From Phyllobacterium sophorae (GTDB lineage Bacteria; Pseudomonadota; Alphaproteobacteria; Rhizobiales; Rhizobiaceae), in the NCBI RefSeq assembly GCF_003010965.1, contig NZ_PGGM01000010.1:62001-126000 (forward strand): a stretch of DNA of 64,000 nt, in the 5' to 3' direction. Positions 5,354-43,127 of this stretch are shown here, piece by piece. Numbering within the stretch: the stretch's first letter is position 1; every line of letters begins with the position of its first letter. The notes below the pieces were generated by a model. It saw only the letters and a program-made list of their open reading frames with translations. It was not told where the DNA came from and made no database searches. The translations under genes were made by a program, and so were the position numbers.

Positions 5354-6862
5354 CTATTGGTAGCGGATCATGACTGTTTTTGTTTCGAGATAATGCTCCA
5401 GGCCTTCCCGGCCATGTTCCCGGCCAAGACCAGACTGCTTCATCCCGCCAAATGGAAGATTTGCATCAAGCACATTGTGAGTATTGACCCAGACAGTGCC
5501 CGCCCGAAGAGCCTTGGTCACACGCATCGCGCGGTCAAGATTGGATGTCCAGACCGAAGCCGCCAGCCCGAACGACGTGTCATTCGCGAGTGCCACGGCT
5601 TCCTCTTCATCATCAAACGGCATGGCCACGATTACCGGTCCGAATACCTCGTCGCGGACTACTTCCATGTCGGGGGTGACGTGGCTCAGCAACGTCGGAG
5701 CCACAAAGAATCCGTGCTCGGGCACCGTGCGCTGACCACTCGCGAGATGGGCGCCAGCCTGTGCTGCACGTTGAATAAAGCCCGAGACGCGATCACGCTG
5801 TTTTGCAGATACTACGGGGTTGAGTTCGGACTCCGGATCCAGTCCGGAGCCGAAAGTCAGGCTATCAGCGACCTTGCCAAGCCTCTCAACCATCTCATCG
5901 TGAATGCGGCGGTCGATCAGAACGCGCGTTGCTGCGGTACAGACCTGTCCCTGGTTAAAAAAGAGACCAAGCCGGGCAACAAGCTGGTCCTGGTTGGATC
6001 CCATGTCGGGGAACAGCAGCATCGGGGATTTGCCCCCGAGTTCCAGGGTGAAACGCTTCATACCATCAATGGCCGCGTGACCGATCAATTTTCCGACCTC
6101 TGTCGAACCCGTGAACGCGAGTTTGTCGACTCCTGTATTCCTTGCGAGGGCCGCACCGGCAACATCGCCCCGGCCCGTGACGATATTGACGACGCCGGAC
6201 GGCAGCCCGGCATCCTGGCAAAGCCGTCCGAAAAGAAGCGCAGTCAGCGGCGTTTCCTCGGAAGGTTTGACGACAATCGTGCATCCGGCCGCCAGGGCAC
6301 TCGCCACCTTCCACACCAGCATAGAGAGGGGGAAATTCCACGGGATGATCGCACCCACGACGCCGACAGGCTCCCGCAGCGTGTATGTCATGTAGCGACT
6401 TCCCGCGGGTGGCGCCTGGATCGAGCTTTGGAGTGTATGTCCCTCAATCTTCGTCGCCCATCCGGCCATGTAGCGCAGATAGTCGACGGAGGCGCCGACC
6501 TCGATTGCCCGCGACAGCCCGATATTCTTGCCGTTATTCAATGATTCCAGTTGTGCGAATGTTTCACCCTGAGCTTCCAGACAATCAGCGAGCTTCAGAA
6601 TCAACCGTTCTCGGTCGGCGGGCCTCAGCCGTGACCACTCGCCGGTCAGAGCCGCGCGTGCTGCCCTCACCGCCTGGTCGATTTCCGCCTCGCCGCAAGC
6701 TGGAACACTCGCAATAACCTGCCCGGTCGCCGGATCGAATACCTCAAGGCGATCGGTCCCGGGGGTAGGCTGGAACACTCCGTCGATGAAGATTTCATGC
6801 GGCCCCTTGAGAAAGGTCCGCACCTCCGCACTCACATGCGCGAGGGTTTGGTCTGTCGCCAT
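5354..6862 (-). CDS. NAD(P)-dependent aldehyde dehydrogenase
   Basis: A 502-residue class I/II-like aldehyde dehydrogenase. It has the Rossmann pattern GFTGSTEVGK (written here as AFTGSTEVGK), the general-base Glu in LELGGKSP, the catalytic Cys in NQGQVCTAATR and the C-terminal PFGGMKQSGLGRE block. It oxidises an aldehyde to a carboxylate in the cytoplasm. AAAGGAA precedes the ATG. The upstream neighbour is a ThDP enzyme related to 2-oxo-acid decarboxylases, whose product would be an aldehyde; the downstream neighbour is a CoA-transferase. The order decarboxylase, dehydrogenase, CoA-transferase, lyase reads as consecutive steps, which is inference from position. Confidence 0.95.
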   Translation of the reverse strand: MATDQTLAHVSAEVRTFLKGPHEIFIDGVFQPTPGTDRLEVFDPATGQVIASVPACGEAEIDQAVRAARAALTGEWSRLRPADRERLILKLADCLEAQGETFAQLESLNNGKNIGLSRAIEVGASVDYLRYMAGWATKIEGHTLQSSIQAPPAGSRYMTYTLREPVGVVGAIIPWNFPLSMLVWKVASALAAGCTIVVKPSEETPLTALLFGRLCQDAGLPSGVVNIVTGRGDVAGAALARNTGVDKLAFTGSTEVGKLIGHAAIDGMKRFTLELGGKSPMLLFPDMGSNQDQLVARLGLFFNQGQVCTAATRVLIDRRIHDEMVERLGKVADSLTFGSGLDPESELNPVVSAKQRDRVSGFIQRAAQAGAHLASGQRTVPEHGFFVAPTLLSHVTPDMEVVRDEVFGPVIVAMPFDDEEEAVALANDTSFGLAASVWTSNLDRAMRVTKALRAGTVWVNTHNVLDANLPFGGMKQSGLGREHGREGLEHYLETKTVMIRYQ

Positions 6863-6890
6863 AATCGTCTGTTCCTTTCGCGGGTTTCCG

Positions 6891-8567
6891 TCAACGCACT
6901 TTCGGCATCAAGATGAGCGGCCACGGACTGGGCATCTCTCCGCACGGGACATGCACCAAGGTGGGCCTTCCGCTTGCAAAGCCGGCCTTTACAGCCTCCT
7001 CCAGCTCTTCGGCCGTACGGGCGCGCAGGCCCATTGCGCCGAAGGATTCCGCCAGTTTGACAAAATCGGGGCTCGCGAGATCTGCGGCAATTACGCGGTT
7101 GCCGTAACGCTCCTGTTGAATGCGCTTGACGTTGCCGTACATGGCATTGTCGAAAACCACGAAGACAACGTTCAGATTGTGTTTAACCGCCGTCGCAAGT
7201 TCGCCAACCTGGTACAGAAAGCCGCCGTCTCCCGAGATGGCGAGCACGGGGCGGTCCGGCATGGCGGCCTTGACCCCCAACGCGGTCCCGATGCCCCAGC
7301 CGAGATTGTCCTGGTAACCGGGGGACAAAAACGAGCGTGGGGCGAATACGGGAAAGGCAAGTCTGCTGACAAATCCGACTTGCGTCACCTCGTCCACGAA
7401 GATGCCTTCCTTTGGCAACGCTGCCCGAAGGGCCTTGAGAAAGCTCATCTGAGGCTCGAGGGCACGCAGCTTGTCCGCCAGCCAATTATTATGCATCGAG
7501 AGTTCACCATCTCGATGCAACCGTTGCCTGTTGAATGCGGGCAGCATTTCGAGAAGGGCCCTTGCGTATGCCGACGCGTCCCCGACCAGGGCCACGGTCG
7601 CCTTCCGGAACCGGTCCGGCTCCTCGGGATTGATATCGACCCGGATGATCTTCAGGTCATCTGAAACTCCCCACATGCTTTGTTGCGTGTGCAGCCGTGT
7701 GCCGATTGCCAGCACGACATCCGCCTCCGCCCAAAGGCGGTGTGCAACCGGCAACCGGACATTCAGACGGTGATCCGATGGAATAACGCCCGTGCCGCGG
7801 CGATAACCGGAAACCGGTGCTTCGAGCATCTCCGCCAGTGCCGCCACTTGCGCGCCCGCATCCTGGGCACCGCCTCCGACTATGATGAGAGGCCGTTCAG
7901 CTTCGGCCAGAATTCTGGCCGCTCGGTCGACAGCCTCGACATCTATCGAGACGGCACGCTCAACATATGGCGGAATGTCGAGATCAATTCTCGCTTGCTG
8001 GGCAAGGACATCCATCGAGCACTCCAGCACGACGGGACCCTGGCGTCCGGAACTGGCCGACCTGATCGCTTCATCCACAATTCCCGGAGCCTCCTGTGGC
8101 GTGCGGATGCGCGTGGCCTGTTTGGAGAAATGACGAGCTATCCCCAGTTGATCGTGCAATTCATGCAGATGGCCATGGCCGCGGTCGATGTCTGCCTGCG
8201 GGATCTGGCCAACGAGTGCGATCACCGGCGCGTTCATACTGTAGGCCGTGAGCAATGCCGCCGACGCATTGAGGAACCCGGGGCCCGGAACCACCGCGCA
8301 GACTTGCGGCCTTCCCGTCACGAGGGCCGCGCCGAGCGCCATATAGGCGGCTGCTTGCTCGTGGCGCGGGTGAATAACCCGCAAGCGATCCCCTGCCCGG
8401 TAGAATGCGTCGAACAAGGGATCACTCTGGAGGCCCGGCAGCGCGTAAACAGTGTCGACGCCCTGCCGGATCAACGTTTCGACGATGGCGTCGGCGGTGG
8501 TCACCGGAGCCGGATACTGGTCACCGGCCTCAAGGCCCGCTATCGCTTTCGAAGCCGGTTGTATCAT
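6891..8567 (-). CDS. thiamine diphosphate-dependent enzyme (acetolactate synthase/decarboxylase-like)
   Basis: A 558-residue three-domain ThDP enzyme. The N-terminal PYR domain carries the cofactor-activating Glu in PRHEQAAAYMA (around residue 70). A central Rossmann domain follows (about 205-340). The C-terminal PP domain has AISGDGGFLYQ followed by FDNAMYGN, the metal/ThDP-binding motif (around 440-475). The family includes acetolactate synthase, benzoylformate and oxalyl-CoA decarboxylases, and many catabolic decarboxylases or lyases. No acetolactate synthase small subunit is nearby. The start at 8567 has only a weak ribosome site (TGGA). In this operon a non-oxidative 2-oxo-acid decarboxylation feeding the aldehyde dehydrogenase is the most economical reading. 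Confidence 0.9.
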   Translation of the reverse strand: MIQPASKAIAGLEAGDQYPAPVTTADAIVETLIRQGVDTVYALPGLQSDPLFDAFYRAGDRLRVIHPRHEQAAAYMALGAALVTGRPQVCAVVPGPGFLNASAALLTAYSMNAPVIALVGQIPQADIDRGHGHLHELHDQLGIARHFSKQATRIRTPQEAPGIVDEAIRSASSGRQGPVVLECSMDVLAQQARIDLDIPPYVERAVSIDVEAVDRAARILAEAERPLIIVGGGAQDAGAQVAALAEMLEAPVSGYRRGTGVIPSDHRLNVRLPVAHRLWAEADVVLAIGTRLHTQQSMWGVSDDLKIIRVDINPEEPDRFRKATVALVGDASAYARALLEMLPAFNRQRLHRDGELSMHNNWLADKLRALEPQMSFLKALRAALPKEGIFVDEVTQVGFVSRLAFPVFAPRSFLSPGYQDNLGWGIGTALGVKAAMPDRPVLAISGDGGFLYQVGELATAVKHNLNVVFVVFDNAMYGNVKRIQQERYGNRVIAADLASPDFVKLAESFGAMGLRARTAEELEEAVKAGFASGRPTLVHVPCGEMPSPWPLILMPKVR

Positions 8568-8597
8568 TGCAAATTATCCAGGTTTGAGTACCGCCGG

Positions 8598-9575
8598 TCA
8601 GATCTGTTCGATCTTCGCGACCTTGACGAGATCAGTCCACTTGGCGACATCAGCCGCGACGCGCGCCCGGAACTCCTCCGGCGTTGCCGACATCGCCGTA
8701 GAGCCCAGGCCCCTGATCCGGTCGATGCTTGCTGGCTCAGCAACCGTTGCTTTGATTCCGTCGTGGAGCTTGGCCACAACGTCAGCTGGCAGATCCTTCG
8801 GCGCTGCAACGCCGTAATAGGATGTCACGTCGTAGCCCGGCAAAACTTCCGCTATTGCCGGCACATCAGGCAGATCGGCGTAGCGCGTCGGACTTGTCAC
8901 CGCAATTGCCTTGATTTCCTTGGATTGTATCTGAGGAAACACAGACGCTGGTCCATTGATCACGAAATCGATCCGTTTGCCCAGGAGATCCACCATTGAC
9001 TGCGAATTCTGCTTGTAGGGCACATGCTGCAGCTTGATCCCGGCCTTCGAGGCCAAGAGTTCCATTGCGAGATGCAGCGTCGTACCGATCCCGGAGGAGG
9101 CATATGTAAACAGCCGGTCGCTCTTCTTAGCCTGCTCGATCAGTTCAGCTGGATTGTTGACCGGATGGTCCGGATACGTCGCAATTGTAAATGGCGTGCC
9201 GCCCGCGACGAGGCTGATGAAGGTAAAGTCATCAACTGTTTTATATGGCAGTTGTTTGTAAATCGCAGCTGCCACCGCGTGGGCGCCCGTCAGCATGATC
9301 AGCGAATACCCGTCGGCGCTGGCGCGTGCAATTTGGTCCGCAGCTGTGGTCCCGCCTGCGCCAGGGCGCGGGTCAACAACCACGCTCCCAGCCAGTTGCT
9401 TGGTTAATCCTTCCGCCGCGACTCGTGCAATTCCGTCACTGTTTCCGCCTGGCCCGAATCCGTGCACCAGAGTTATCGGTCGCTCGGGCCATCCTGCTGC
9501 CCGGGCGATAGCTGGCATAAGTACCGCTGCGGCGCCGCCCGCAAGGATGCTACGGCGCGTTAATTTAAAGGTCAT
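8598..9575 (-). CDS. Bug-family periplasmic carboxylate-binding protein (TctC-like)
   Basis: A 325-residue tripartite tricarboxylate transporter receptor. The export signal (LTRRSILAGGAAAVL, ending near ARA) has a twin-arginine look. The mature part starts WPERPITLVHGFGPGG, and GSVVVDPRPGAGGTTAADQI is the ligand-loop region, seen as PRPGAGG followed by AADQIA. Bug proteins bind small carboxylates such as citrate, adipate or terephthalate in the periplasm. It is the first gene of the leftward operon, behind GGGAGG and a GntR operator. No TctA/TctB membrane subunits lie in the window, so it must use subunits encoded elsewhere or act as a sensor. Its ligand is probably the substrate of the downstream pathway. 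Confidence 0.93.
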   Translation of the reverse strand: MTFKLTRRSILAGGAAAVLMPAIARAAGWPERPITLVHGFGPGGNSDGIARVAAEGLTKQLAGSVVVDPRPGAGGTTAADQIARASADGYSLIMLTGAHAVAAAIYKQLPYKTVDDFTFISLVAGGTPFTIATYPDHPVNNPAELIEQAKKSDRLFTYASSGIGTTLHLAMELLASKAGIKLQHVPYKQNSQSMVDLLGKRIDFVINGPASVFPQIQSKEIKAIAVTSPTRYADLPDVPAIAEVLPGYDVTSYYGVAAPKDLPADVVAKLHDGIKATVAEPASIDRIRGLGSTAMSATPEEFRARVAADVAKWTDLVKVAKIEQI

Positions 9576-10062: not shown

Positions 10063-10605
10063 CTAACAGCGAACCGCCAGAGTCATTCGAATGCACCACA
10101 CTCTGCACTGTTCAACTTCGCCCTCGAATTGCGGCTGCCAACGAAGGCAGTAGGCCCGAATCCGTCGGACCACCACCGCCAAGAGAATTCCCACGACCAT
10201 AAGTACGAAAATCGCAACCATCATTCCAACAGAATGGGCGCGAGCTTCGGATTCGACGATCAGCTTTCCGACGCCGCGCTCCGCTCCAACGAATTCGCCA
10301 ACGAGGGCAAAGGAAACTGGGATCAAGGACGCGAACACCAATGCCAGCGCCGACGGCACTACGACGCTGCGAAGTATCTTAGCTTTGGTTGCACCGAGCA
10401 GCCGGGTAGCTGCAATCTGGTCGCGGTCGACAGCCCTCGTCAGCAAGCTCATATCCCGACTGGAGATGCGGCTCGGCGTACGGCCGCTGGCTCGTACGGC
10501 CAGAGCGCTCACGCCGAGGCTTATTACGACCGCAGTCTGCAGATTCTCGCTGATGCCGATGAGGCTGAGCGCGCCGCGTTTCAGGGAGCAATTCCAATCG
10601 GCCGT
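10063..10605 (-). pseudogene. remnant of an ABC transporter permease (SsuC/TauC-like), C-terminal part
   Basis: The frame reads through the inner-membrane permease signature: VDRDQIAATRLLGATKAKI resembles the EAA loop (x-A-A-x-x-LGA), followed by VVVPSALALVFASLIPVSF and a final membrane helix (MVAIFVLMVVGILLAVVV). The upstream part runs to a stop near 10620 and lacks the first half of a permease. No ATPase or binding protein adjoins it. At about 10605 the sequence changes into LysR-derived sequence on the other strand, so the join is a rearrangement point. A broken nitrate/sulfonate/taurine-type importer is the best reading. Confidence 0.7.
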
Positions 10606-11075: not shown

Positions 11076-11927
11076 TCACTCAGGATGTTCGGTCGGCGCA
11101 AGGACAAAGTTAAAGAGGGAACGCCATTGCGTCGGGCCTTGCGCAACGCGCTGGAAGGGTGCAACCAGTGTTTTTTTTACGCCGAACACCGTGTCCGAGT
11201 CCAGATAGGCGTCGTCGCCGACGAAGGTGTGTGTCACGAGCTTTTGATAGCCATCTGCAGTCACAAGGTAATGCATGTGCGCCGGGCGATATGGGTGACG
11301 GCCGAGACTGGCTAGCATCTGACCCACTGGACCGTCATCGGGGATCGGATAGGACACCGGCTTGACGCCTATGAAGCGGTACGTGCCGTCTGAACCGGTG
11401 ACGAAGATGCCACGATTGTTCCATTTGGGCTGGATCTCGGGCTGCTGAACATCATAGTAGCCTTCCGCGTTGTCCGACCAGACATCGACTTTTGCGCCCT
11501 CAATCGAGTTGCCGTCAAGATCGATCACCCTGCCCTCGTAAAGGCAGCTTTCACCCTTTCCGTCCAGGCTGATGTTTTCGCCCATCTGCCGGACGGGCGC
11601 GCCCTTGACGTGGAACGGTCCGAATACCGTATTTTCCGTCGCGCCTGGCGGGCGGCGGTTGTTGATGGCATCCACCAGCATGGAAAAGCCCAAGGTGTCC
11701 GAAAGCAGGATGAATTCCTGTCGCTCGTCGCTGCAAATGCGGCCCGTTCGAGTCAGAAAGTCGATACCAAGCTCCCATTCCTCCTGCGTAAGTTTTGTTT
11801 CCTTTGCAAAAGCGTGAATGTGTTTGATCAAGCAAGCCATGACTTCGGCAAGACGCGGATCGACCTGCTTGCCCATGCGTGCATTGACTGCCTCGACAGA
11901 ACCTTCTTCGGTGAAGTAGCCTTTCAT
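11076..11927 (-). CDS. hydroxyquinol 1,2-dioxygenase (intradiol ring cleavage)
   Basis: A 283-residue non-haem Fe(III) intradiol dioxygenase. The N-terminal helical dimer domain spans about 15-90 and the catalytic beta-sandwich starts at ENTVFGPFHV. Iron ligands are visible: Tyr in EGYYDVQ, Tyr in VSYPIPDDGPVG, and two His in RPAHMHY. The YPIPDDGPVG block points to hydroxyquinol rather than catechol dioxygenases. The reaction opens 1,2,4-trihydroxybenzene to maleylacetate. The ATG at 11927 with GGAG 7 nt upstream is preferred over a TTG at 11957. The upstream gene is maleylacetate reductase, which uses the product directly, so the assignment is strong. Confidence 0.92.
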   Translation of the reverse strand: MKGYFTEEGSVEAVNARMGKQVDPRLAEVMACLIKHIHAFAKETKLTQEEWELGIDFLTRTGRICSDERQEFILLSDTLGFSMLVDAINNRRPPGATENTVFGPFHVKGAPVRQMGENISLDGKGESCLYEGRVIDLDGNSIEGAKVDVWSDNAEGYYDVQQPEIQPKWNNRGIFVTGSDGTYRFIGVKPVSYPIPDDGPVGQMLASLGRHPYRPAHMHYLVTADGYQKLVTHTFVGDDAYLDSDTVFGVKKTLVAPFQRVAQGPTQWRSLFNFVLAPTEHPE

Positions 11928-11974
11928 ATCGTCTCCCATGTCATCGTGTTGCGCCAAGCCGGGTGGATCGCCGC

Positions 11975-13036
11975 TTACTGCGGGCGTTCGCCCCTCCAGG
12001 CGCGCTGCAACAGCGAAAGGATGTCATCACGAGTGATAGGGCGTGGATTCCAATAGGAGTTTTCCAACGCCAGTTCGGCAACGGTCTTGATGCCGTCTTG
12101 CGGCATGCCGAGTTGAGAGAGCGCCTGCGGTGCATCCAGCGTTTTGATCAGGTCAAACAGGCCATGTCCCGCATCCGATGTCCCCATGGCGCGAGTAATC
12201 GCGGCCATCGCCTCTGGCGCGGCAGTTGCATTATAGGCGACCGCATGGGGAAGGACGACGGTATGGGTTTCGGCATGCGGGAGGTTGAAGCTTCCGCCCA
12301 GCGTGTGGCAGAGCTTGTGATGCAGCGACATCCCGACTGCCCCAAGGCAACAGCCGCACAGCCAGGCGCCATAGAGCGCTTTCGTGCGGGCTTCCATGTC
12401 AGACGGTTCGCTAACCAGAACAGGCAGCGCTGCAGAAAGCATGCGGATACCATCTTCCGCCATCAGCGAAATCACCGGGTTGCGATCTTCTGCATAAAGG
12501 GCCTCGACCGCGTGGGCGATAGCATTGATACCCGAGGTAGCGGACAACGCCGGTGGCAGGCCTAGCGTCAGGTCTACATCGTAGATCACCGTTTCGGGCA
12601 ATACATCCAACGAACGGATTGTCGTCTTTCGCGCACCTTCGGTTTCGCCTAATATCGGCGTCATCTCCGAACCAGCGTAAGTGGTCGGGATGACAAGCTG
12701 CGCGACCCCCGTTCGCCGTGCCAAAGCTTTGGCGAGCCCCGTCGTGGACCCGCCGCCTATAGCCACGACGCAATCGGCTTTAGCCTCGCGCAAAGCGATA
12801 AGAGCCTGCTCAGTGGTCGCAACGGGCGTATGCATGACGGCACCGGCGAACAGCCCCACAAAGGCCTGCCCAAGCAGCACGCCGACCATCTCCCCTTGTT
12901 CCAACTGTTGAGGCGTCGTTAGCACCAGGGCGCGACTGGTGCCGAGCCGGGACAGCTCATCCCCAGCCTCAGCAATTGTGCCACGTCCAAAACGAACGCG
13001 GATCGGCAAAGCCTCATAGGTGAAAGTCTGAATCAT
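11975..13036 (-). CDS. maleylacetate reductase (iron-alcohol-dehydrogenase family)
   Basis: A 353-residue Fe-ADH-superfamily protein with the MAR N-terminus (FTYEALPIRVRFGRGT), a dinucleotide region ADCVVAIGGGSTTGLAKA, and the His-rich helix SLHHKLCHTLGG followed by HAETHTVVLPHAVAYN. It reduces maleylacetate to 3-oxoadipate with NAD(P)H, joining the hydroxyquinol branch to the beta-ketoadipate pathway. It lies 47 bp upstream of the dioxygenase in the same direction, the usual pairing. A decayed copy of the same N-terminus lies at 20036-20110. Confidence 0.93.
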   Translation of the reverse strand: MIQTFTYEALPIRVRFGRGTIAEAGDELSRLGTSRALVLTTPQQLEQGEMVGVLLGQAFVGLFAGAVMHTPVATTEQALIALREAKADCVVAIGGGSTTGLAKALARRTGVAQLVIPTTYAGSEMTPILGETEGARKTTIRSLDVLPETVIYDVDLTLGLPPALSATSGINAIAHAVEALYAEDRNPVISLMAEDGIRMLSAALPVLVSEPSDMEARTKALYGAWLCGCCLGAVGMSLHHKLCHTLGGSFNLPHAETHTVVLPHAVAYNATAAPEAMAAITRAMGTSDAGHGLFDLIKTLDAPQALSQLGMPQDGIKTVAELALENSYWNPRPITRDDILSLLQRAWRGERPQ

Positions 13037-13127
13037 GCGGATCGTCCCTTATCGAGGTCTCTTAGCTTCTGATCGCGGTGAACGATGGACGAAGGGCGCG
13101 TCCGAAGCTGAGAGCACAGCCAGAACC

Positions 13128-13733
13128 TTACAGGCTTGCCCCGGCCAGCCAATTTTCGCCACGGCGATAAAGTGCCTCGACCTGGGGGCCGACAAGTCCA
13201 GGCATGTCTTTTTTTACCACGTAGCCGATGCGCGACTGCATGTAGGCAAGATGTCGATATCCAACCGGAAACTGTTCAAGCAGATCCGTGTCCAGAAGCA
13301 ACTGCTCCGACGGATCTACAGGATTAACCGTGTCCTTTTCGTAAATCGGCTGACGCAATATCATTCTCCATTGGCCGTTCCTTTTTTCGATGAAATCATA
13401 GAAACGTCCGGTGCAGACCACGTCGCAAAGAACATCTTCTACCAGCCCACGCTGAGATATCGTCATCTTGGTCTGCGAAATGGCCCTATCATCTTTTAGG
13501 TCGATCGAGGTGCCGCCAAGGAAGTGCAATATGTTGACTCCTTTTTCAAAACCTTCCCGGCTGACACGGATGAATTCATCAGCGATTCCCTGAAACCAGG
13601 TCGCCTGCATGACGCCGTCATCGGACCAGACGGTACGAAACCGATCCCAGTCGCCGGCATCGCGCCATACCGCCCAGTTTTCAATCAAGTCACGAATGGC
13701 CAGACGGTCCATAATTTCCTGAGGTATCGACAT
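13128..13733 (-). CDS. SnoaL/NTF2-like protein, probably catabolic
   Basis: A 201-residue alpha+beta barrel protein of the SnoaL-like superfamily. IRDLIENWAVWRDAGDWDRF near the N-terminus is the typical opening (split here as IRDLIENWAV and DAGDWDRF), and WSDDGVMQATWFQG contains the conserved Asp. CTGRFYDFIEKRNGQWRM is the fold's central strand pair. The ATG has GGAG 7 nt upstream. Family members are hydratases, isomerases, decarboxylases or small dioxygenase subunits. Between maleylacetate reductase and an aromatic-acid permease it may act on a ring precursor of hydroxyquinol. The exact reaction cannot be read. Confidence 0.75.
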   Translation of the reverse strand: MSIPQEIMDRLAIRDLIENWAVWRDAGDWDRFRTVWSDDGVMQATWFQGIADEFIRVSREGFEKGVNILHFLGGTSIDLKDDRAISQTKMTISQRGLVEDVLCDVVCTGRFYDFIEKRNGQWRMILRQPIYEKDTVNPVDPSEQLLLDTDLLEQFPVGYRHLAYMQSRIGYVVKKDMPGLVGPQVEALYRRGENWLAGASL

Positions 13734-13772
13734 TTATCTACTCCTTTTACGAAACGGCATCCCGTTCCCGAT

Positions 13773-15157
13773 TTAATAGTTTGCCGGTGTCGGACTGTTT
13801 CGCGGACCCGCCCTTGCGACCGACGGAGCATGATTGCTGACAACAGTAACGGCCATCAGCGCGATCATCAGGGAAACCGCGATCACGCTGAAAAACACGC
13901 TGCTGCCGAAGCCTAAACTGAGGGAACCTACATACGCGCTGGCGATTGCGCCCAGCCGCCCAAAACTTGCGGCACTTCCCACGCCGGTCGATCGAACGGT
14001 CGTTGGGTAGATATGTGTGGCCAAGGCATACAAGGATCCTTGCGCGCCGAGTAGAAAGAACCCTTGCACGCAGAGTGTTACCAAAATCATCGGCTTCAAG
14101 GTGGGTGAGATCGGCATGAGTGCCAGGATTGCCGTACTGATAACCGCCCCTCCCGCGATGGTCACAATGCCAATCTGCGAGCCAAAGCGACCGATTCCCA
14201 AGCCGCGGCAAAGCAGCCGACGGTTCCGCCCAGATTGAAAAGCGCAAGTCCGAAACTGGCAAACTGCACATCGAACCCTTGGCTGGTCAGCAGCGTCGGC
14301 GCCCATCCATAGAGAATAAAGACCGGCATCTGGCAGAAAAAGAACGCCGCCCACATCGCGAGTGTGTTGCGCCGCAGCAGAGGGGCTAGCAGGGCGCCGA
14401 ATGAAGGACGGCTGACACTCACCTCACGTTGATCGACGAATGTGGTGTTGGTGGCGAAATCCGCACCCAGCTTTCGGATAGACGCCGTCAGTCCGGCGAC
14501 GTTGCTCCCGCGTCGCAGGAGATACTGCGGAGATTCCGGCAGCACGAACATCAGGACGGCTGCAAGCACCAGGGGCGCGCTGCCGCTGATGATGAACAGC
14601 GTCCGCCAGCCCTGACTTGGCAGGATCTGGGCGGCGATGACTCCGGCAATCATGCCGCCGATCGGGATACATGCGATGCCTAAGATAACCGACAGGCTGC
14701 GTCGATTCTGTGGGGTGAATTCTGCGGTTAAAGCCATGGCTGCAGGCACAGCTCCGCCAAGGCCAAGACCGGCGATGAAGCGGAACAGGATGATCTGGTT
14801 TACGCTATGGGTAAAGCCGATCATAACGGTGGCAGTTCCGAACACCGCAACCGCTACGATCCGCGCGATCTTGCGGCCGATTCGGTCTGCAAACATGCCG
14901 CCGATCGGGCTGCCGATTGCCATACCCGCGAAACCAAGGGCAAGGGCCGGTGCGAAATCAATGCGGGATACCTGCCATTCGGCGATCAGCGACGGAATAA
15001 CAAATCCCAGAAGTTGGTTATCCAGCCCATCGAACACCAGCGCGAGCGCGCAATAAAGCAGGACCAGCTTCCGCGATGTAACCCAAGGCCCGTCATCGAC
15101 GAGCCTACCGATATCAACAACGGGTTGTTGTCCCGCCTCCGTTTCAAGATGTCTCAT
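13773..15157 (-). pseudogene. aromatic acid:H+ symporter (MFS, AAHS family), single frameshift
   Basis: Two frames together give a complete 12-helix MFS permease of about 461 residues. The AAHS-family DGLDNQLLGFVIPSL motif lies in helix 1 and GSPIGGMFADRIGRK in the loop 2-3. The frame is lost near 14200-14206: the first reads GGTVGCFAAAW, and GIGRFGSQIGIVTIAGG continues in another frame, as expected after one deleted base. The total length is one base short of a whole number of codons. Everything else looks intact, so this is a very recent mutation or a sequencing error. The transporter would import an aromatic acid for the demethylase and hydroxyquinol enzymes around it. GGAGGAG precedes the ATG. 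Confidence 0.85.
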
Positions 15158-15180
15158 GGTATTAGTTCTCCTCCCTAAAC

Positions 15181-16173
15181 CTATTCGTTACCCTTAGAAT
15201 ATTTGGGGGTGCGACCCGCCTCCACTTCTGCCTGGTTGCATCGCTCGGCTGCATCTGCCCGGCTAATGGCATTCCACTGCACCGGCGTAGATTGCGTATC
15301 GCCTCGTGCACGGCGGCACTGCGCAGCGTGCAAAGTATTCGCAAGCAGATATGCGATGGTCATTGGGCCCACACCTCCCGGCACAGGGGTGATGGCGCCA
15401 GCGACCTGACGCGCTTCATCGAAGTTGACGTCACCCGATAGGCGTTCCTTCCCAGTTTCCTGCTGGACCCTGGTAATGCCGACATCGATCACCGTCGCAC
15501 CAAGTTTGATGTAATCGCCACGGATCAAGCCGGGCACCCCCGTCGCGGTCACCAGAATGTCCGCCGTCCGACACAGCCGCGCCAGATCAGCCGTGCGGAT
15601 ATGAGCGATCGAAACCGTGCATTGCGCCTGCAAAAGTAGCCGTGCCATAGGTCGCCCAACCACATTTGATGCACCGACCACTAAAGCGTCCATCCCCGCA
15701 ATGTCCTCATGAACGCTATGGATAAGCCGCATGGCGCCAAGGGGAGTACAAGGTGTCAGCGCATCTCGCGCGCCGTTCGCGACATGTCCGACATTGAGCG
15801 GATGGAAGCCGTCCACATCCTTTTCAGCGGCGATGACGTTTACGACATGGGCAGGATCAATATGCGCGGGCAATGGGAACTGGATCAGAATTCCATCAAT
15901 TGCGTCATCCATGTTCAGCCGCTGAATCAGACTGATCAGCTCTTGCACGCTTGTCTCGGACGAAAGCCTAAAGCATTCTGACCGCATACCGACCGACTGT
16001 GTCTGCCGAATCTTGTTGGCGACATAGATCTGGCTGGCAGGGTTCTCGCCAACCAACACGACAGCCAGGCCCGGCGGTTCAAAACCTTCAACAATGAGGT
16101 CGGCGACGCCCGACGCGACCTCTGCACGCACTTCCGCCGCCATTGCTCTCCCATCGATGATCCGCGCTGCCAT
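15181..16173 (-). CDS. folD: methylenetetrahydrofolate dehydrogenase/cyclohydrolase FolD
   Basis: A 330-residue bifunctional enzyme interconverting 5,10-methylene-, methenyl- and 10-formyl-THF. It shows [17 protein letters not shown] with the catalytic Lys, [14 protein letters not shown], the cofactor loop [16 protein letters not shown] and the C-terminal [16 protein letters not shown]. It is about 40 residues longer than usual, with an Ala/Arg/Glu-rich tail. It lies between the THF-dependent demethylase and the MFS gene and is probably a pathway-specific copy that oxidises C1 units released by demethylation. A second chromosomal folD is likely but not visible here. Confidence 0.93.
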
Positions 16174-16188
16174 GTCTGATCCACCCGA

Positions 16189-17466
16189 CTACAGCTTCGC
16201 CAGATCGGCGCGACGATTGTCATTTTTGTAAGGGGCCCGAGCGACCTTTGCCCGAATCTTCTTCTGGCGTTGGCCAGGTTCTCCCCACACCACGACGACG
16301 TCGGTCCCAACCTCGGCATGGGCGATGTCGATCACGCATAGCGACAGCATCTCGCGAAAGAAATAGCTATAGCCACGCGACGTCGCGACTCCGACATCCT
16401 GACCATCGACAAGCACGCGATCTGCATACATGAAGCCGCGCTGATCGCGGGGCATTTCCATGAATTGATAGGGAACTTCGTCGTTGCGGTATAGGGAGGC
16501 ATAAACATCAGCGATATCTTCGCTATTCCAGACCAGCGTCCGGATCGCCCGTCGGGGATTTGCGACTTCCTCTTCCAGCGCGGCGCGACCGATAAAGTCG
16601 TGATCAAATTTGATATTCTTGCCCCACCCCAATTCTACCGGACTACGATACCAATCCCTGATCTCGTCAGAAGCGAAGCTCCCGGCGATATTGAAGGTGG
16701 CTGCAACACTGGGCATCGCCGCCTGGAATTCGTCCCGGTACTCCTTCAAGTCCTCATCAAAGATCGCCGGCATATAGTCAGTGATGATCGTCGGGAAGCA
16801 GGCTTCAAGATGGTTGATAAATACAGCCCGCCCGCCAAGACGGCGCAGCCCGAATTCAGGCCCTGCCGCGACGATAGCATCGTAGACCTGGGACGCCTGT
16901 TCCCTTGGTCCTTGCAGCTCAAACCCGACTTCGCCCGACATACCCTGGCGCAGGGCAAGCATCGTGCAGCCGGCGATTTCGATTTCGATCGAGCGCATGA
17001 ACTTGACATCACGAAGCGAGCGGTTGGCGACCTTTTCCAGCAAGGCCAGTGCCGTTGGGCCTGCTACCTGAAAGTTGAACCAGTCATCCGCAACAGATTC
17101 GACATCGTAATTCCCCTTGCGACGAATATAATCAACCCAGAAGGTTCCACGGCCGAACAGCATGTATTCGGAATCGGAAAGGCGCGTCAGAATCCCCTCG
17201 GCGATGACTTTTCCGGCCTTATTGGTGTGCGTCACATGCTTTGATTGCAGGACGTCAAACTTCTGGAAACTGTTGATTGAGGTGTCGGAAAACAGCTTCA
17301 GCGCATCAGGGCCTTTGAAGCGACGTTCCCACAGAAAGCTCCAATCCCCGATCGAGCAGGTCTGTTTCCATGACATGCTCTCGTCGATCCAGTCGGTATA
17401 TTCCGGTAGCCCCCAGCGGGTCGTGAAATACCCCTCGGGGGTTTTGCGAATTTCATTGGGGTGCAT
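16189..17466 (-). CDS. tetrahydrofolate-dependent O-demethylase, GcvT/LigM-like
   Basis: A 425-residue protein of the aminomethyltransferase (GcvT) superfamily. It resembles LigM, the vanillate O-demethylase of Sphingobium, more than glycine-cleavage T protein: KGPDALKLFSDTSINSFQKF, RQGMSGEVGFELQGP, and ELGWGKNIKFDHDFIGRAAL near residue 300, with a C-terminal barrel ending RGYSYFFREMLSLCVIDI (split: RGYSYFFREM, LSLCVIDI). It should move a methyl group from a methoxylated substrate to THF. The ATG at 17466 has AAGGA 7 nt upstream and is preferred over 17487. Flanking purU and folD handle the C1 product, which supports the role; whether the substrate is an aryl ether is inferred. Confidence 0.85.
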   Translation of the reverse strand: MHPNEIRKTPEGYFTTRWGLPEYTDWIDESMSWKQTCSIGDWSFLWERRFKGPDALKLFSDTSINSFQKFDVLQSKHVTHTNKAGKVIAEGILTRLSDSEYMLFGRGTFWVDYIRRKGNYDVESVADDWFNFQVAGPTALALLEKVANRSLRDVKFMRSIEIEIAGCTMLALRQGMSGEVGFELQGPREQASQVYDAIVAAGPEFGLRRLGGRAVFINHLEACFPTIITDYMPAIFDEDLKEYRDEFQAAMPSVAATFNIAGSFASDEIRDWYRSPVELGWGKNIKFDHDFIGRAALEEEVANPRRAIRTLVWNSEDIADVYASLYRNDEVPYQFMEMPRDQRGFMYADRVLVDGQDVGVATSRGYSYFFREMLSLCVIDIAHAEVGTDVVVVWGEPGQRQKKIRAKVARAPYKNDNRRADLAKL

Positions 17467-17483
17467 AAGAGTTTCCTTTTTCA

Positions 17484-18347
17484 TCATCGGGCAAAGACGA
17501 CAGTGCGCGCCCCGTTTGGGATTACTCGATCTTCCAGAAAGAGCAGAACCGCCCGGGACAGCACGCGACGTTCTATATCGCGGCCCTTGCGCACAAGATC
17601 GGCCGGGGAATCGCGATGACTGACCCGCTCAATGTCCTGTTCGATGATCGGCCCTTCGTCCAGATCGGCTGTCACGAAATGGGCGGTGGCACCGATCAGC
17701 TTGACGCCACGGTTGTGCGCCTGGTGATAGGGCTTTGCACCTTTAAAGCCAGGCAGGAAACTGTGGTGGATGTTGATGCAGCGCCCTGAAAGACAGGTGC
17801 TAAGATCGTCCGACAGAATTTGCATATAACGGGCCAGAACGATCAGGTCCGGATCCGTTTGCCGGATAATTTCCTTGATCTTCGCTTCCTGTGCGGTCTT
17901 GGATTGCGCTGTTACGGGCAAGTGGTGGAATGGGATATCGCCAATCAAGCTGACCGAAAGCGCCGTGCGGGGATGGTTCGAAACGATCCCCATGATATCC
18001 ATGGGCAATTCACCAAGGCGGTGTCTGTAGAGCAGATCGCCAAGGCAATGGTCGAATTTGGAGACTAGCAGCAGGACCTTCTTGCGTTCTATGTTAAGCC
18101 GCAATGTCCATTCCATGCCGAATCGATCTGCAATCCGCCCAAGGGCTTCGTGCAATCGTTCCTTGCGGTCTGACACAAGGTTAAACCCGACCCGCATGAA
18201 GAAGAGGCCAGTTTCGGCATCGTCGAACTGTTCGGCCTCGACGATGTCGCCTCCCATCCGGAAAATGCAGCCGGACACTTCGGATACTATCCCCGGTACA
18301 TTGCGGCAGAAGAATTTCAAGACAAAATTTTCAACTGAAGGGGTCAA
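17484..18347 (-). CDS. purU: formyltetrahydrofolate deformylase PurU
   Basis: Hydrolyses 10-formyl-THF to formate and THF. It has an N-terminal ACT domain ([20 protein letters not shown]) and a formyltransferase-fold domain with the Asn-His-Asp triad in [17 protein letters not shown] and [15 protein letters not shown]. The TTG at 18347, behind GGGAGAGAAG, gives 287 residues, the family norm; the ATG at 18464 would add 39 residues of unrelated N-terminus. It starts the demethylation operon and regenerates free THF from C1 units, next to folD and the LigM-like gene. The start is less certain than the function. Confidence 0.9.
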
Positions 18348-18558
18348 GGCTAACTTCTTCTCTCCCAAAGAAAGGAACTGGCGACGCGGCGCGGCAGAGC
18401 GTTGGCGCACAAGGGCCGGAGCGACGATTAAGACGAGGAGCGGAAACAAGAAGGTGTCAGACAAAGCAGCAAACCGCGTCGCACCTGCCGTTAAATCACC
18501 CTCCCAGCGTTTCTGGCGGACGCCGCTCCCTTATTGCAAAACTACGGGCAGAAATCGA

Positions 18559-18569
18559 TATTGACAATA
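18559..18569. promoter_or_regulatory. palindrome in the purU-lysR divergent promoter region
   Basis: TATTG-A-CAATA is a perfect short palindrome, 31 bp before the lysR start, and contains a -35-like TTGACA (18561-18566). LysR regulators usually bind such dyads between themselves and the divergent target operon. The evidence is only positional. Confidence 0.35.
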
Positions 18570-18599
18570 CGGATGTTTTTAATAATAGGTATTTGAATT

Positions 18600-19562
18600 A
18601 TGGATATCAGGCGTCTCGATCTCAATCTTCTTCTGCTGCTGAACGGACTCCATCGTCAGCAAAACCTCTCGGCAGTGGCACGCACGCTCGGCCTGAGCCA
18701 ACCTGCCGCAAGCGCTGGGTTACGGAAGTTGCGGGCGTTTTTCGAAGATCCCCTTTTTCTGCCTACGGGCCGGGGAATGAAGCCGACTCCGTTTGCCGAA
18801 TCGATCGCGGCGTCAGTCGCGTCGGTGCTCACCATCGTCGAACGTGATCTGCTGCATAAGCCCGTGTTCTTACCGCTAGAGAGCGACCGCGTGTTCACGA
18901 TCACGACTCCTGATATCGGCGTCCCGATCTTCGTTCCGCCGATCCTTGAGAGAATTCGGGCAGAGGCGCCCAAGGTAAACCTGAAATGCGTGGCCTGCCC
19001 GCATGCCGAACTTGAGGATCGGATGGAACAGGGTGAAATCGACTTGGCGATCGGATATTTTCCCGATCTGGCGGGTCCGAATATCGTAATCGAGGCTCTG
19101 TTCGATCACCCCTTCACATGCATAGTCAGCAAAAGACATCCTACAATCGGCGACACTCTTTCCATTGAACAGTTCCTCGCGGCGGACCATCTGGTCGTTA
19201 CCCAGCAGGGCCGCAGCCAGGAAATCTTTGAACGCCGAGTTCAAGAACTGAAGCTACAACGTCGGATTTTACTACAGCTTCCCCATTTTATGAACGTGCC
19301 GCAAATGATCGCCCAAAGCGACATGATAGCGACTGTTCCGTTATCACTTGGCGCTTGGTATGCACATATCGGCCTGAAACTGCTTCCACCGCCAATAACC
19401 ATACCGGTCATCGAGGTCAAACAGTTCTGGCATAGGCGGATGACAAACGATCCGGCTGTGCACTGGCTGCGAACTATCGTGTCCAAGGAGTTGCGTGGTC
19501 GCGACCCAGTGCAGGCGGCCTCGGATGGATATGCGAATACCAGGACAAATTTTTCGGAGTAG
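18600..19562 (+). CDS. LysR-family transcriptional regulator of the demethylation/hydroxyquinol operon
   Basis: A 320-residue LTTR. The N-terminal helix-turn-helix is RQQNLSAVARTLGLSQPAAS followed by LRKLRAFFEDPLFLPTGRGM. The effector domain spans about 90-300. It is divergent from purU with a 250-bp gap to the chosen purU start (the upstream part of the purU frame lies in it). By LTTR convention it should activate the leftward operon in response to a pathway aromatic. Its closest relative in the window is the LysR at 48275, which shares the same lead motif pattern (SQP-x2-S, DPLF--T--GM-PT). Confidence 0.92.
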   Translation: MDIRRLDLNLLLLLNGLHRQQNLSAVARTLGLSQPAASAGLRKLRAFFEDPLFLPTGRGMKPTPFAESIAASVASVLTIVERDLLHKPVFLPLESDRVFTITTPDIGVPIFVPPILERIRAEAPKVNLKCVACPHAELEDRMEQGEIDLAIGYFPDLAGPNIVIEALFDHPFTCIVSKRHPTIGDTLSIEQFLAADHLVVTQQGRSQEIFERRVQELKLQRRILLQLPHFMNVPQMIAQSDMIATVPLSLGAWYAHIGLKLLPPPITIPVIEVKQFWHRRMTNDPAVHWLRTIVSKELRGRDPVQAASDGYANTRTNFSE

Positions 19563-20224: not shown

Positions 20225-21753
20225 TCAACTGGCGATTTTCTCCAAACGCGGCATCTGATGCCCGAGCACCGTTTCAATTACACGGCGAGCATCTGCGTCG
20301 TTCGAACCTCGCCATGCAACGATCTGGTCCGGGCGGATGAGTGCTAAGGGCGCTTCGTAGAGTTGCTGCACCTCAGGGAGTGTACAATTGACAATGGTTA
20401 GCTCCATTCCGAGCTGCGCCGCTGCTAAGATGAAGTGATCGACACTTGGAGGCGTTTTGCCGAGGCGAAGGAGTGTCCATTCAAAGCCGAACAGATCGTA
20501 AAGCGACGTTGACGAGTCGATCCAGAAATGTGGAGCGCGCCCACCCGGAGCGGCTGTTGGAGCGTACGCGTTCGGTAGATCTTCCACCTGGACCGTCTGC
20601 TCGGAGAAAATCACGGGAGAGCCGTCGTAACGAGCGCCAAACGTAGTACCCGGGATGTTGAACTCCGCCTTTCCGTGAGACGCGAGATATGCGCCAGCTT
20701 CCTTCCGAATCGCTTGCCCTTCGGCGGTGTCGTCTTCCAGGCAAGGCTGCGGCTTGTATAAGCCAATCGATTCTGCGAATTGCCTAGCGAAGCCTGTGTT
20801 GCGAACGGCAATCGGCCTTCGCTCATGTTCATAGGTCTCCAAAATGGCAGGTGCCGCAACGCCCTTAAGAGCGGCAGCGAGCTTCCATCCCAGATTGACT
20901 GCGTCATCCACGGCCGTGTTATAGCCGAGCCCGCCGGCGGGAGTGAAAAGATGAACTGCGTCACCGCCCAAAAGGATCCTCCCGCGCCCGTAACTCTCTG
21001 CGACAAGCGCATAGCCAGCCGTCCATGTCCCACGAGAGATAATCTCCGCCTCAACGGACAAGCCGACTGCGTGTTGGAACATTGCCAGAGCCTGGTCGTC
21101 GGTGATTTCGTCCTGTTTCTCGTCATCCCTCCGAAGAAGTCCCTCTCGGCTCCAGCATCCCCCTTATAGGATATGCCGAGTTGCCGCCGGGCGAAACTTC
21201 GAGCGCCATCACCTCCGATGAAGTACTTTACGCGCACCTTTCGGCGCGTTGCTTGCGCGACTTCGCTTGCGGTCACGACCACCGCGTCCTGCGCCTCAAT
21301 AAATTCCACAACACGCCAACCGTAATTGATTGACACACCTGGCAACGCCTCAGCATGTCTTCGAAGTACTTGCTCGACATATTTCTGCGATACACGGTGC
21401 GGCAGCTCGGCGGCACTCCACGATCCTGACATCGAGCAAACCGCCTCACGGGCTTCGCGGGCGGACGGCAGGCGGAAACGCCCCAGCTCATGCTTGGCGT
21501 AGCGGGTGAAATAGGCAATATCTGTTGGGAAAGCCTCAGGAAGACCCAACGCTCTGATTTCGTCAGCGAATCCAAGCCGCCGATAGTGTTCCATCGTCCT
21601 CGCCTGGGTCGCATTTACCTGTGGATTGAAAGCCGTTGGGGACTTCTCGTCGAACAGGACGACCGAGATACCCCGTCGCCCAAGCTCATTGGCAAGCATC
21701 AGGCCAAATGGCCCACCCCCGGCAATCCCAACATCGAATACAGCACCTTCCAC
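20225..21753 (-). pseudogene. FAD-dependent aromatic hydroxylase (PheA/TfdB/MhpA type), frameshifted and internally deleted
   Basis: The N-terminal frame has the FAD-binding GIAGGGPFGLMLANELGRRG (from residue 9) and the second Rossmann signature YFIGGDGARSFARRQLGI. It loses frame near 21125-21140, and the C-terminal part continues in another frame with the FAD ribityl motif GRILLGGDAVHLFTPAGGLG and NTAVDDAVNLGWKLAAAL. By comparison with the family, roughly 65 codons of the substrate domain are also missing between FFGG and the DDQALAMFQ block. The GTG at 21753 has GGGAGG 7 nt upstream. Intact relatives hydroxylate phenols such as resorcinol to hydroxyquinol, which would feed the dioxygenase at 11076. 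This copy is very probably inactive. Confidence 0.85.
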
Positions 21754-21777
21754 GGCATATCCTCCCGACATTAGCTC

Positions 21778-30791: not shown

Positions 30792-32552
30792 TCAATTCGC
30801 CGCGCAGAATTGGGACGCAATCTCGCGTCCAGCAATGTACCCGAACGTGAGCGCGGGACCGAGATTGATGCCGCCCGACGGGTAGTAGCCGCCCATGACG
30901 CTGGACATGTCCGCCCCGACCGCAAACAGATTAGCGATGGCGGTACCCTCCTTACTCAACACTGCGGCTGTGGCATCGGTTTTCAAGCCCATGAACGTGC
31001 CAAAACTCCCGGGCAAAACCTTGATTGCGTAGTACGGGCCTTTTCCGATGGGCGCGACGCAAGGGTTTGGCTTTACGTCCGCATCCCCGCCCTTGCGATT
31101 AAAGGCCGTGCTTCCGCGCTCGAACAGGGGATCTTCGCCCCTTGCTGCATGCCGATTGTAAAACTCGATCGTCGCCTCTAGCCCTGAGGATGAAATTCCA
31201 CAAGCATTCGCGAGCTCTGCTATCGATCTCCCTGTCTTGATATACCCCGAGTTGATGAACGGTTTGACGGGCAAAGGCGATGGCCGGGATGCGCCGAGGC
31301 CATAGCGACGTTGAAAGGCGTGATCACAGATGAGCCAGGAGGTTACTTCCGCGCCCGGCGGTGTCGCTTTGATCATTGCGGTGACATAGTCATAGTATCC
31401 ATGCGCTTCGTTGACGAAGCGACGACCGTCGGCGAGCACAGCGATGATGCCGGGCTTGGCGCGCTCAATGATGTGCGGAAACCGTCCTGTTGTGCCGTCA
31501 GGATAAGGGACGAGTGAAACGGGACACCAAGCGGCCGGCGACGCGATCGAAGGGTCGACAAATCCACCAACGGCTTCCGCCAAACGCAGACCGTCACCAC
31601 ATGCCGACTCGGGCGTGACCGACCAGTGTCGCGTCGGCGTAGAAAACTGGTTCGCAACCTCTGACCAACGCTCTTCATCGTGCGGAAAACCGCCTGTTGC
31701 CAGGACAGTCCCGTAGCGAGCCAGGATGCGCAATGGACCGTTCCCCGTTTCAACGGCCGCTCCGCATACCGCGTACCCGTCATAGATGAGTTCCTTGGCG
31801 CTGCTCGATACCCTGATTTCAACGCCGAGGCGTTCGGCGGACAGCGCAAGGCGGGCAATCAACGCATTGCCGTTCACGAGCTGCGTTGCCCGGCGGTATA
31901 GGCCAAGATCGAAGAGATGTCGCCCGACGCGTTTGGCGACGTGAGCGAATGACTTCAACGAGCGGGTCATCGCAAGGAAGGCTTTCAGATCGTTTCCCGC
32001 CATGATCGGCATTCCCAGGAAAGAAGTCTCCCGCATCGGCCGCCGCAACTTGTCAAACAGGGGACCGAGAGCAAGGCCATTGATCGGAGCCGCGCACACC
32101 TGGTGCCCGCCGGTTGCCGCGCCTTCCGTCCAGCCATGCATATCGGCTATGGCGTTGCCTTCGACGAACTTAAGGTCTGTTTTCGTATGAAAGAACTCCA
32201 CCATCTCCGGCGCCGCGTGGAGGAAGGCTTTCACCCTTGCCGGATCGAAATAGGGGCCGGTCTCATGACGCAGATAGGTGAACGGGCCATCCGGAGCATC
32301 ATCGTACCCGGCTTCCCGAGCCAACGGGTTTCCCGGCACCCACATCCATCCGCCTGACCAGGCGGCCGCGCCCCCAAAGACCGGCTCCTTTTCGACGACG
32401 ATGACCTTCAACCCGTGCCATGCGGCAGTGACGGCCGCCGACAGGCCGCCGGCGCCTGAGCCAACGACAAGCATATCGCAGTGAACAGTTTGGGAGCTGT
32501 TGATCTGACCGTCGTGACGTGCAGTGTCATCTGGAATGGAGGTTTCCATCAT
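30792..32552 (-). CDS. KstD-like FAD-dependent oxidoreductase, copy A
   Basis: A 586-residue flavoprotein of the fumarate-reductase/3-ketosteroid Delta1-dehydrogenase family. It has the FAD fold VVGSGAGGLSAAVTAAWHG with VVEKEPVFGGAAAWSGGWMW, and the C-terminal YYPSGGINLGPALTFGYIAG, which matches the KstD active-site block with its Tyr and Gly. Such enzymes desaturate a ring C-C bond next to a ketone, or reduce one. No signal peptide is present. It overlaps the dehydroquinase-like gene by 4 nt. A near-identical copy lies at 40273. The substrate is probably a cyclic ketone made by the module's SDR (inference). Confidence 0.88.
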   Translation of the reverse strand: MMETSIPDDTARHDGQINSSQTVHCDMLVVGSGAGGLSAAVTAAWHGLKVIVVEKEPVFGGAAAWSGGWMWVPGNPLAREAGYDDAPDGPFTYLRHETGPYFDPARVKAFLHAAPEMVEFFHTKTDLKFVEGNAIADMHGWTEGAATGGHQVCAAPINGLALGPLFDKLRRPMRETSFLGMPIMAGNDLKAFLAMTRSLKSFAHVAKRVGRHLFDLGLYRRATQLVNGNALIARLALSAERLGVEIRVSSSAKELIYDGYAVCGAAVETGNGPLRILARYGTVLATGGFPHDEERWSEVANQFSTPTRHWSVTPESACGDGLRLAEAVGGFVDPSIASPAAWCPVSLVPYPDGTTGRFPHIIERAKPGIIAVLADGRRFVNEAHGYYDYVTAMIKATPPGAEVTSWLICDHAFQRRYGLGASRPSPLPVKPFINSGYIKTGRSIAELANACGISSSGLEATIEFYNRHAARGEDPLFERGSTAFNRKGGDADVKPNPCVAPIGKGPYYAIKVLPGSFGTFMGLKTDATAAVLSKEGTAIANLFAVGADMSSVMGGYYPSGGINLGPALTFGYIAGREIASQFCAAN

Positions 32553-42030: not shown

Positions 42031-42252
42031 ATCTTCTGACCCTCGTCTCGACGCCGCCACCGAGCCTCTAGAGCTGCGTGCCATCTTTGATGGTCCGCGG
42101 CCGGCAGAACCTCTGCCTGCTTGGTGGCGCCGTCGGCAGCAAGCGGAACCTTCTCACAAAGCCTATTCTTGAAAGGGTAATCTGAGCCCAATCCAACCAA
42201 ATGAGCTTGAGTGCATGTCCGCCTCAACTCGCGATCCGCGACGCGAAGCGGA

Positions 42253-43065: not shown

Positions 43066-43127
43066 TTCAAACCTCTGTTCAATGGCGACTGCAAGCTCGG
43101 GCAGTAATCGCGGTATCCGTTGCACGA

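Follow-up and report, generated by a model that had tools for sequence, protein, structure and literature searches.

We analyzed a 64,000-nucleotide stretch of the Phyllobacterium sophorae genome (contig NZ_PGGM01000010.1, positions 62,001–126,000; hereafter the window), in which a set of minus-strand genes at 11076–18347 places tetrahydrofolate (THF)-dependent one-carbon (C1) metabolism together with hydroxyquinol cleavage. In order, the genes encode the 10-formyl-THF deformylase PurU (17484–18347), a GcvT-like THF-dependent enzyme of 432 amino acids (16189–17487), the methylene-THF dehydrogenase/cyclohydrolase FolD (15181–16173), an AAHS-type aromatic-acid permease (13773–15157), a SnoaL/NTF2-like protein (13128–13733), maleylacetate reductase (MAR; 11975–13036) and hydroxyquinol 1,2-dioxygenase (HQDO; 11076–11957). 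Since the PurU and GcvT-like genes overlap and the later gaps measure only about 15–95 bp, the genes from PurU to HQDO are likely to form a single transcript, and would then be co-regulated. PurU (TIGR00655, 328 bits; cut-off 286), for which a TTG start at 18347 was assumed in an open reading frame (ORF) open to 18464, and FolD (408 bits) scored above their cut-offs. Both copies are extra to those elsewhere in the genome, which holds one other strong FolD match and two other PurU matches above cut-off. The original prediction of an operon with its own folD and purU, joining a THF-dependent C1 step to hydroxyquinol cleavage, was thus borne out; it had made no mention of a divergent LysR-family regulator gene (18600–19562, plus strand; Pfam HTH_1 and LysR_substrate), whose neighboring counterparts at Bradyrhizobium loci are 70–72% identical, or of a decayed monooxygenase gene beyond it. 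An alignment of the LysR–PurU intergenic region (18348–18599) with 9 homologous loci, read by eye, revealed that its conserved part is the side adjoining the LysR start codon, and a pattern search of the window found no LysR box.

The last two genes, adjacent at 11076–13036, encode the hydroxyquinol lower pathway. HQDO, taken from a TTG start with an alternative ATG at about 11928, carries Dioxygenase_N and Dioxygenase_C domains (Pfam), and its top match in the PDB was a 6-chlorohydroxyquinol 1,2-dioxygenase (8r2x, 447 bits); a plain catechol dioxygenase was set aside, since catechol enzymes scored at most 124 bits and the chlorocatechol enzyme 128. MAR matched the maleylacetate reductases 3hl0 and 3w5s with 422 and 408 bits, respectively.

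A PDB sequence search with the SnoaL-like protein singled out PPP2 (E value 2e-32) and AGDC1 (4e-31), the next best entry having an E value of 0.016. Both are described, in a passage of PMC7862292, as fungal non-oxidative gallate/protocatechuate decarboxylases needing no organic cofactor. The AF2 model (mean pLDDT 95.9, from a 17-row alignment) superposed on PPP2 and AGDC1 over 200 of 201 residues (Z 27.5 and 27.4, rmsd 1.7; Foldseek was also run), the next entry scoring 15.8 and scytalone dehydratases 14–16. The window protein and 21 of 21 close homologues (59–77% identity) share eight of the nine AGDC1 substrate or catalytic residues compared (W35, R39, D40, T60, W61, H86, Y150 and Q192), so that the His-Asp dyad (His70–Asp25 in the window), the Trp clamp (Trp20/Trp46), Arg39, Thr60 and Gln192 occur in 22 of 22; the ninth, Y146, is Arg in every one of them. 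Among 12 distant SnoaL proteins, R39, D40, W61 and H86 were found in all, Q192 in 10, Y150 in 2, and W35 and T60 in 1 each. The window protein also differs from the fungal enzymes in having Phe at Arg87, in being bacterial, and in having relatives in hydroxyquinol clusters. It probably works as an AGDC1-type decarboxylase and provides the decarboxylation step of the operon. The earlier suggestion that this protein is a candidate for a missing step was supported for decarboxylation; ring hydroxylation was set aside in view of the AGDC1 match. By chemical reasoning, an AGDC1-type enzyme would act on 3,4-dihydroxybenzoates, and the matching trihydroxybenzoate that yields hydroxyquinol would be 2,4,5-trihydroxybenzoate.

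The GcvT-like enzyme lies outside the LigM/DesA clade. Its scores against the NCBIfam equivalog models, 292 bits for DesA and 288 for LigM, fell well below the respective cut-offs of 800 and 580 bits, although its predicted fold (AF2, mean pLDDT 82) has LigM as the nearest solved structure (Z 40, 37% identity), and THF use is common to both. A 74-protein maximum-likelihood tree, built without identical rows or rows shorter than 330 amino acids, has a branch with 100/100 support that separates 34 rows with His226, including the window enzyme, from 40 rows with Tyr222 and no His226; the tree carries a long-branch warning and an arbitrary root, and 5 of the 34 His226 rows have both Tyr and His. 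Position 222 corresponds to Tyr247 of LigM, a catalytic residue of that enzyme; it is Val in the window enzyme, no relative at ≥62% identity has Tyr there, and every LigM-type row does. A paper on berberine demethylenases places SesA and BrdA in one group, separate from LigM, DesA and DmdA, and lists R81, H82, R100, R179 and H225 as the SesA residues expected to act and D95, E189 and Y221 for THF (PMC5547118). At these places the window enzyme has K83, H84, R102, R180 and H226, and E97, E190 and V222; judged by the published numbers, H82, R100, R179, E189 and H225 all appear to have equivalents, whereas Lys replaces Arg81, Glu replaces Asp95 and Val replaces Tyr221. A GcvT fold by homology, the His at the SesA 225 place, the Arg and Glu at 179 and 189 and most spacings appear to be common to the window enzyme and SesA, BrdA and PipA, from which it differs in being joined to hydroxyquinol genes. 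Because many LigM types also have H84 and R102 (SesA His82 and Arg100), these two were not used as discriminators; only positions 222 and 226 discriminate.

The kind of C1 group removed bears on the genes expected nearby. Methyl removal gives 5-methyl-THF, as reported for dicamba demethylases in a passage of PMC9404685, whereas the expected product from a methylene bridge is methylene-THF, on which FolD acts; a methyl product would thus call for MetF and a methylenedioxy product would not. Neighbors were counted by profile searches of six-frame ORFs within 3 kb. Of 31 relatives at ≥62% identity, the window included, none had MetF nearby, 18 had FolD and 23 had PurU (17 had both FolD and PurU), compared with 10 for MetF, 2 for FolD and 3 for PurU (never FolD with PurU) among 39 LigM-type genes. 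The Fisher values (MetF 0.0017, FolD 1e-6, PurU 7e-9) are overstated, since many loci are closely related, for instance four Pseudomonas BN411 contigs; some flanks are short. The LigM-type controls comprised all 13 class-search matches outside the window genome, 20 hand-chosen family-search regions, 18 of them of LigM or Tyr+His type, and second copies in loci already included; GcvT-like fragments shorter than 200 amino acids and the repeat loci L065 and L151 (of L074 and L027) were left out. Five distant relatives with His226 and no Tyr222 (43–51% identity) had MetF once (at L069), PurU once and no FolD, and five Tyr+His types had no MetF and one each of FolD and PurU. The separate clade, the missing Tyr247, the SesA-type His and the presence of FolD and PurU without MetF nearby favor a methylenedioxy acid of the piperonylate type, so that removal of a methylenedioxy bridge is likelier than that of a methyl group; we propose that the GcvT-like enzyme transfers a methylene group to THF as a putative methylenedioxy demethylenase. 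For the same reasons the original prediction of a LigM-like demethylase of a methoxylated aromatic is not supported. An N- or S-methyl substrate was set aside in view of the aromatic gene context.

Comparison across genomes revealed that the operon combines two modules, which are usually found apart. The PurU–GcvT-like–FolD block occurs with the LysR gene, and usually with an MFS permease, in Bradyrhizobium, Mesorhizobium and Methylobacterium, and the block is also present in Pseudomonas. Of 22 other close SnoaL homologues, 11 have MAR and HQDO within 10.5 kb; these 22 loci represent all 11 close loci from the family search and 11 of 18 plasmid records at ≥58% identity, without L065 and L071, repeats of L074 and L086. 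This conservation, together with that of the folate block in many genomes, indicates that the grouping is not due to chance. Within 12 kb of the same 22 loci, a TIM-barrel gene was found at 8, and a THF-type enzyme and a monooxygenase at 2 each. The pairing of THF-dependent enzymes with neighboring hydroxyquinol genes is seen repeatedly, in several lineages. An aromatic-degradation island on plasmid pLRE138 of Rhodococcus erythropolis R138 (L074, 11388–40029) joins two Tyr+His GcvT-like enzymes, FolD, PurU and a P450 system with SnoaL, MAR and HQDO, and also carries a Rieske oxygenase, uniting the same functions independently of the window. A marine Rhizobiaceae metagenome-assembled genome has a GcvT-like relative, a LigM type, a monooxygenase (assigned by eye), MAR and HQDO; in Pseudomonas taiwanensis a 51% GcvT-like relative adjoins HQDO, and in genome G015 a LigM-type gene adjoins a SnoaL homologue. 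Mesorhizobium amorphae and genome G352 hold a LigM type, monooxygenase, MAR and HQDO together; R. leguminosarum Vaf-108 has a LigM type, MetF, PurU and a monooxygenase, with no MAR or HQDO in the stretch.

Two genes of the locus are decayed. The permease, whose first part matches TIGR00895, is broken by one clean frameshift near 14,200, across which a 451-amino-acid Bradyrhizobium homologue aligns in two frames; the aromatic-acid permease foreseen earlier is thus present but not intact. Beyond the LysR gene, and 6.5 kb away from the permease, lies a PRK06126-like FAD monooxygenase pseudogene (20225–21771, minus strand) that has changed frame and lost about 50 codons; it is the sole close match to this monooxygenase in the genome, which contains one further partial match at 35% identity. 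Intact relatives flank hydroxyquinol genes in other genomes, adjoining MAR or HQDO or standing one gene off in Cupriavidus P-10, Paraburkholderia sprentiae, M. amorphae and Variovorax, and lying 1.9 kb from a SnoaL homologue, with MAR and HQDO nearby, in P. hospita. Because the hydroxylase gene is dead, the substrate probably already bears its third oxygen.

Taken together, these data lead us to read the locus tentatively, and with a little less than even confidence, as an operon for the catabolism of a hydroxybenzoic acid that carries a methylenedioxy group. In this scheme the GcvT-like enzyme would pass the bridge carbon to THF, giving 5,10-methylene-THF, which FolD would oxidize to 10-formyl-THF and PurU would convert to formate and THF. 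With 2-hydroxy-4,5-methylenedioxybenzoate as the best-guess substrate, the product would be the catecholic acid 2,4,5-trihydroxybenzoate; the SnoaL-like protein would decarboxylate this to hydroxyquinol through its dyad and clamp with no organic cofactor, HQDO would cleave hydroxyquinol to maleylacetate, and MAR would reduce maleylacetate to 3-oxoadipate. The lower pathway would be the known one, here supplied through a THF-dependent enzyme and a SnoaL-type protein instead of, or in addition to, a monooxygenase. The analysis itself shows the gene identities, the clade, the residues, the predicted folds and the conserved gene neighborhoods, from which the two enzyme activities, the substrate, the sequence of reactions and co-regulation are inferred.

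Several observations weigh against this reading. The likeness to SesA, BrdA and PipA rests on published residue numbers rather than direct sequence comparison, and the R102–R180 spacing is 78 against 79 in SesA (R100–R179), the other spacings being equal. AGDC1 Glu88, which binds potassium and is essential in AGDC1 according to a passage of PMC7862292, is Leu in the window protein and all 21 close homologues (22 of 22), and the failure of this potassium site is why we do not class the protein as a plain AGDC1 member. A SnoaL homologue was present in the fetched flanks of 0 of 28 other GcvT-like loci in one scan, on which we base the separateness of the two modules, and at 11 of the 22 other SnoaL loci MAR and HQDO were not found within the limit above. 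A 47% relative of the GcvT-like enzyme (L069) has MetF within 3 kb, beside a neighboring LigM-type gene, and the window genome itself contains MetF and a weaker MetF-like match elsewhere. Lastly, the permease and the hydroxylase are both broken, so the route may be impaired or decaying in this strain.

Some of these points suit other explanations. The GcvT-like enzyme could be an O-demethylase of a methoxylated hydroxybenzoate, with the general MetF oxidizing 5-methyl-THF and the SnoaL-like protein still decarboxylating. The structural closeness to LigM and the MetF genes elsewhere in the genome speak for it, as do true LigM types in legume symbionts that sit with an FAD monooxygenase, accompanied by MetF and PurU in one case and by MAR and HQDO in two; however, the missing Tyr222, the separate clade, the widely missed LigM and DesA cut-offs and the absence of MetF near all 31 relatives make it unlikely, though it keeps appreciable weight. 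We also consider it rather unlikely that the modules are unlinked neighbors, a piperonylate-type module leading to protocatechuate and the protocatechuate dioxygenase of the genome while the SnoaL–MAR–HQDO genes are fed otherwise. Each module does occur elsewhere without the other, PipA turns piperonylate into protocatechuate, and of the five intradiol dioxygenases in the genome two are adjacent on another contig, probably as a protocatechuate 3,4-dioxygenase. The permease and SnoaL genes are nevertheless on the same strand with a gap of about 40 bp, Rhodococcus R138 independently joins GcvT-like, FolD and PurU genes with SnoaL, MAR and HQDO, and the SnoaL homologue in G015 adjoins a LigM-type gene.

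That the SnoaL-like protein instead acts on an alicyclic compound, as a dehydratase or aromatase, appears improbable. Its fold is common to dehydratases, type II dehydroquinase genes stand at two annotated SnoaL loci, and the TIM-barrel genes near 8 of the 22 homologues have two relatives in the window, the nearer about 19 kb off; the gap in Z score between AGDC1/PPP2 and the scytalone dehydratases, and the kept carboxylate-gripping Arg and Trp clamp, argue for a decarboxylase.

Other features of the window and of related loci were also recorded. The TIM-barrel genes (33013–33876 and 42253–43125) are mostly 31–43% identical to those near SnoaL homologues, which hints at a second, alicyclic source of hydroxybenzoate. 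Two FAD_binding_2 dehydrogenase genes (30792–32552 and 40273–42084) are 95% identical over 578 amino acids and 33–34% identical to an FAD gene two genes from a SnoaL homologue on a Sinorhizobium meliloti plasmid. Downstream of the operon, a short, apparently truncated ORF (10063–10512) partially matches an ABC-transporter permease domain. An aldehyde dehydrogenase, a TPP enzyme and a TctC receptor in a row (5354–9575) outwardly resemble the mdlC–ALDH–TctC set of a Variovorax hydroxyquinol cluster. The TPP enzyme (6891–8567) had no tblastn match at 1e-15 to mdlC from the hydroxyquinol clusters of Variovorax and Paraburkholderia, and these genes were therefore kept out of the operon. In three other genomes, two from legume symbionts and one from an alphaproteobacterium, a LigM type stands beside the FAD monooxygenase (L182, L185 and L114), with MAR and HQDO at L182 and L114 and with MetF and PurU at L185. 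Pseudomonas sp. BN411 has one PurU–GcvT-like copy on each of four contigs (L023–L026), at or near a contig end, reflecting copies of the region or an assembly effect. On a Rhizobium lusitanum plasmid (L067, 4844–13535), a molybdenum-hydroxylase trio upstream of a GcvT-like homologue and PurU resembles the piperonal oxidase PceSML as described in part of PMC5131310, a candidate route, by analogy, from piperonal to piperonylate.

Searches of open-licence literature, which cannot prove absence from print, matched only a fungal cell-factory study for O-demethylase, tetrahydrofolate, hydroxyquinol and MAR together and only a fungal review for a trihydroxybenzoate/hydroxyquinol decarboxylation–demethylation gene cluster; within the same literature, nothing judged relevant was found for hydroxyquinol with SnoaL or with scopoletin, and nothing matched gallic acid decarboxylase combined with both pea pathogenicity protein and crystal structure. 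Passages of related papers describe PipA of Rhodococcus ruber, whose target is the methylenedioxyphenyl group and whose preferred substrate is piperonylic acid, in a piperine-to-protocatechuate path (PMC12753220), bacterial conversion of protocatechuate to hydroxyquinol (Spence et al. 2020, as told in PMC10815724), and a Variovorax isoflavone cluster with a different, A-ring route (PMC11069340).

If the preferred reading is true, bacteria would have a hydroxybenzoate decarboxylase of the type whose cofactor-free members have fungal structures, with a place in a pathway, and methylenedioxy-cleavers (His at the position of SesA 225, accompanied by FolD and PurU) could be told by rule from methyl-removers (Tyr at LigM 247, MetF in some loci). 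The best-guess substrate would be a fragment of methylenedioxy pterocarpans. It is conceivable, at a low probability, that the operon serves legume pterocarpans (for example maackiain or pisatin) and finishes the degradation of their methylenedioxy ring through demethylenation, AGDC1-like decarboxylation and hydroxyquinol, as one of several parallel routes whose LigM-type versions serve methoxy analogues in legume symbionts. GcvT-like methylenedioxy-cleavers are easily mislabelled "vanillate O-demethylase", as BrdA once was according to a passage of PMC5547118. The preferred reading also suggests that soil and root-associated bacteria repeatedly use hydroxyquinol as an outlet for plant aromatics bearing methoxy or methylenedioxy groups.

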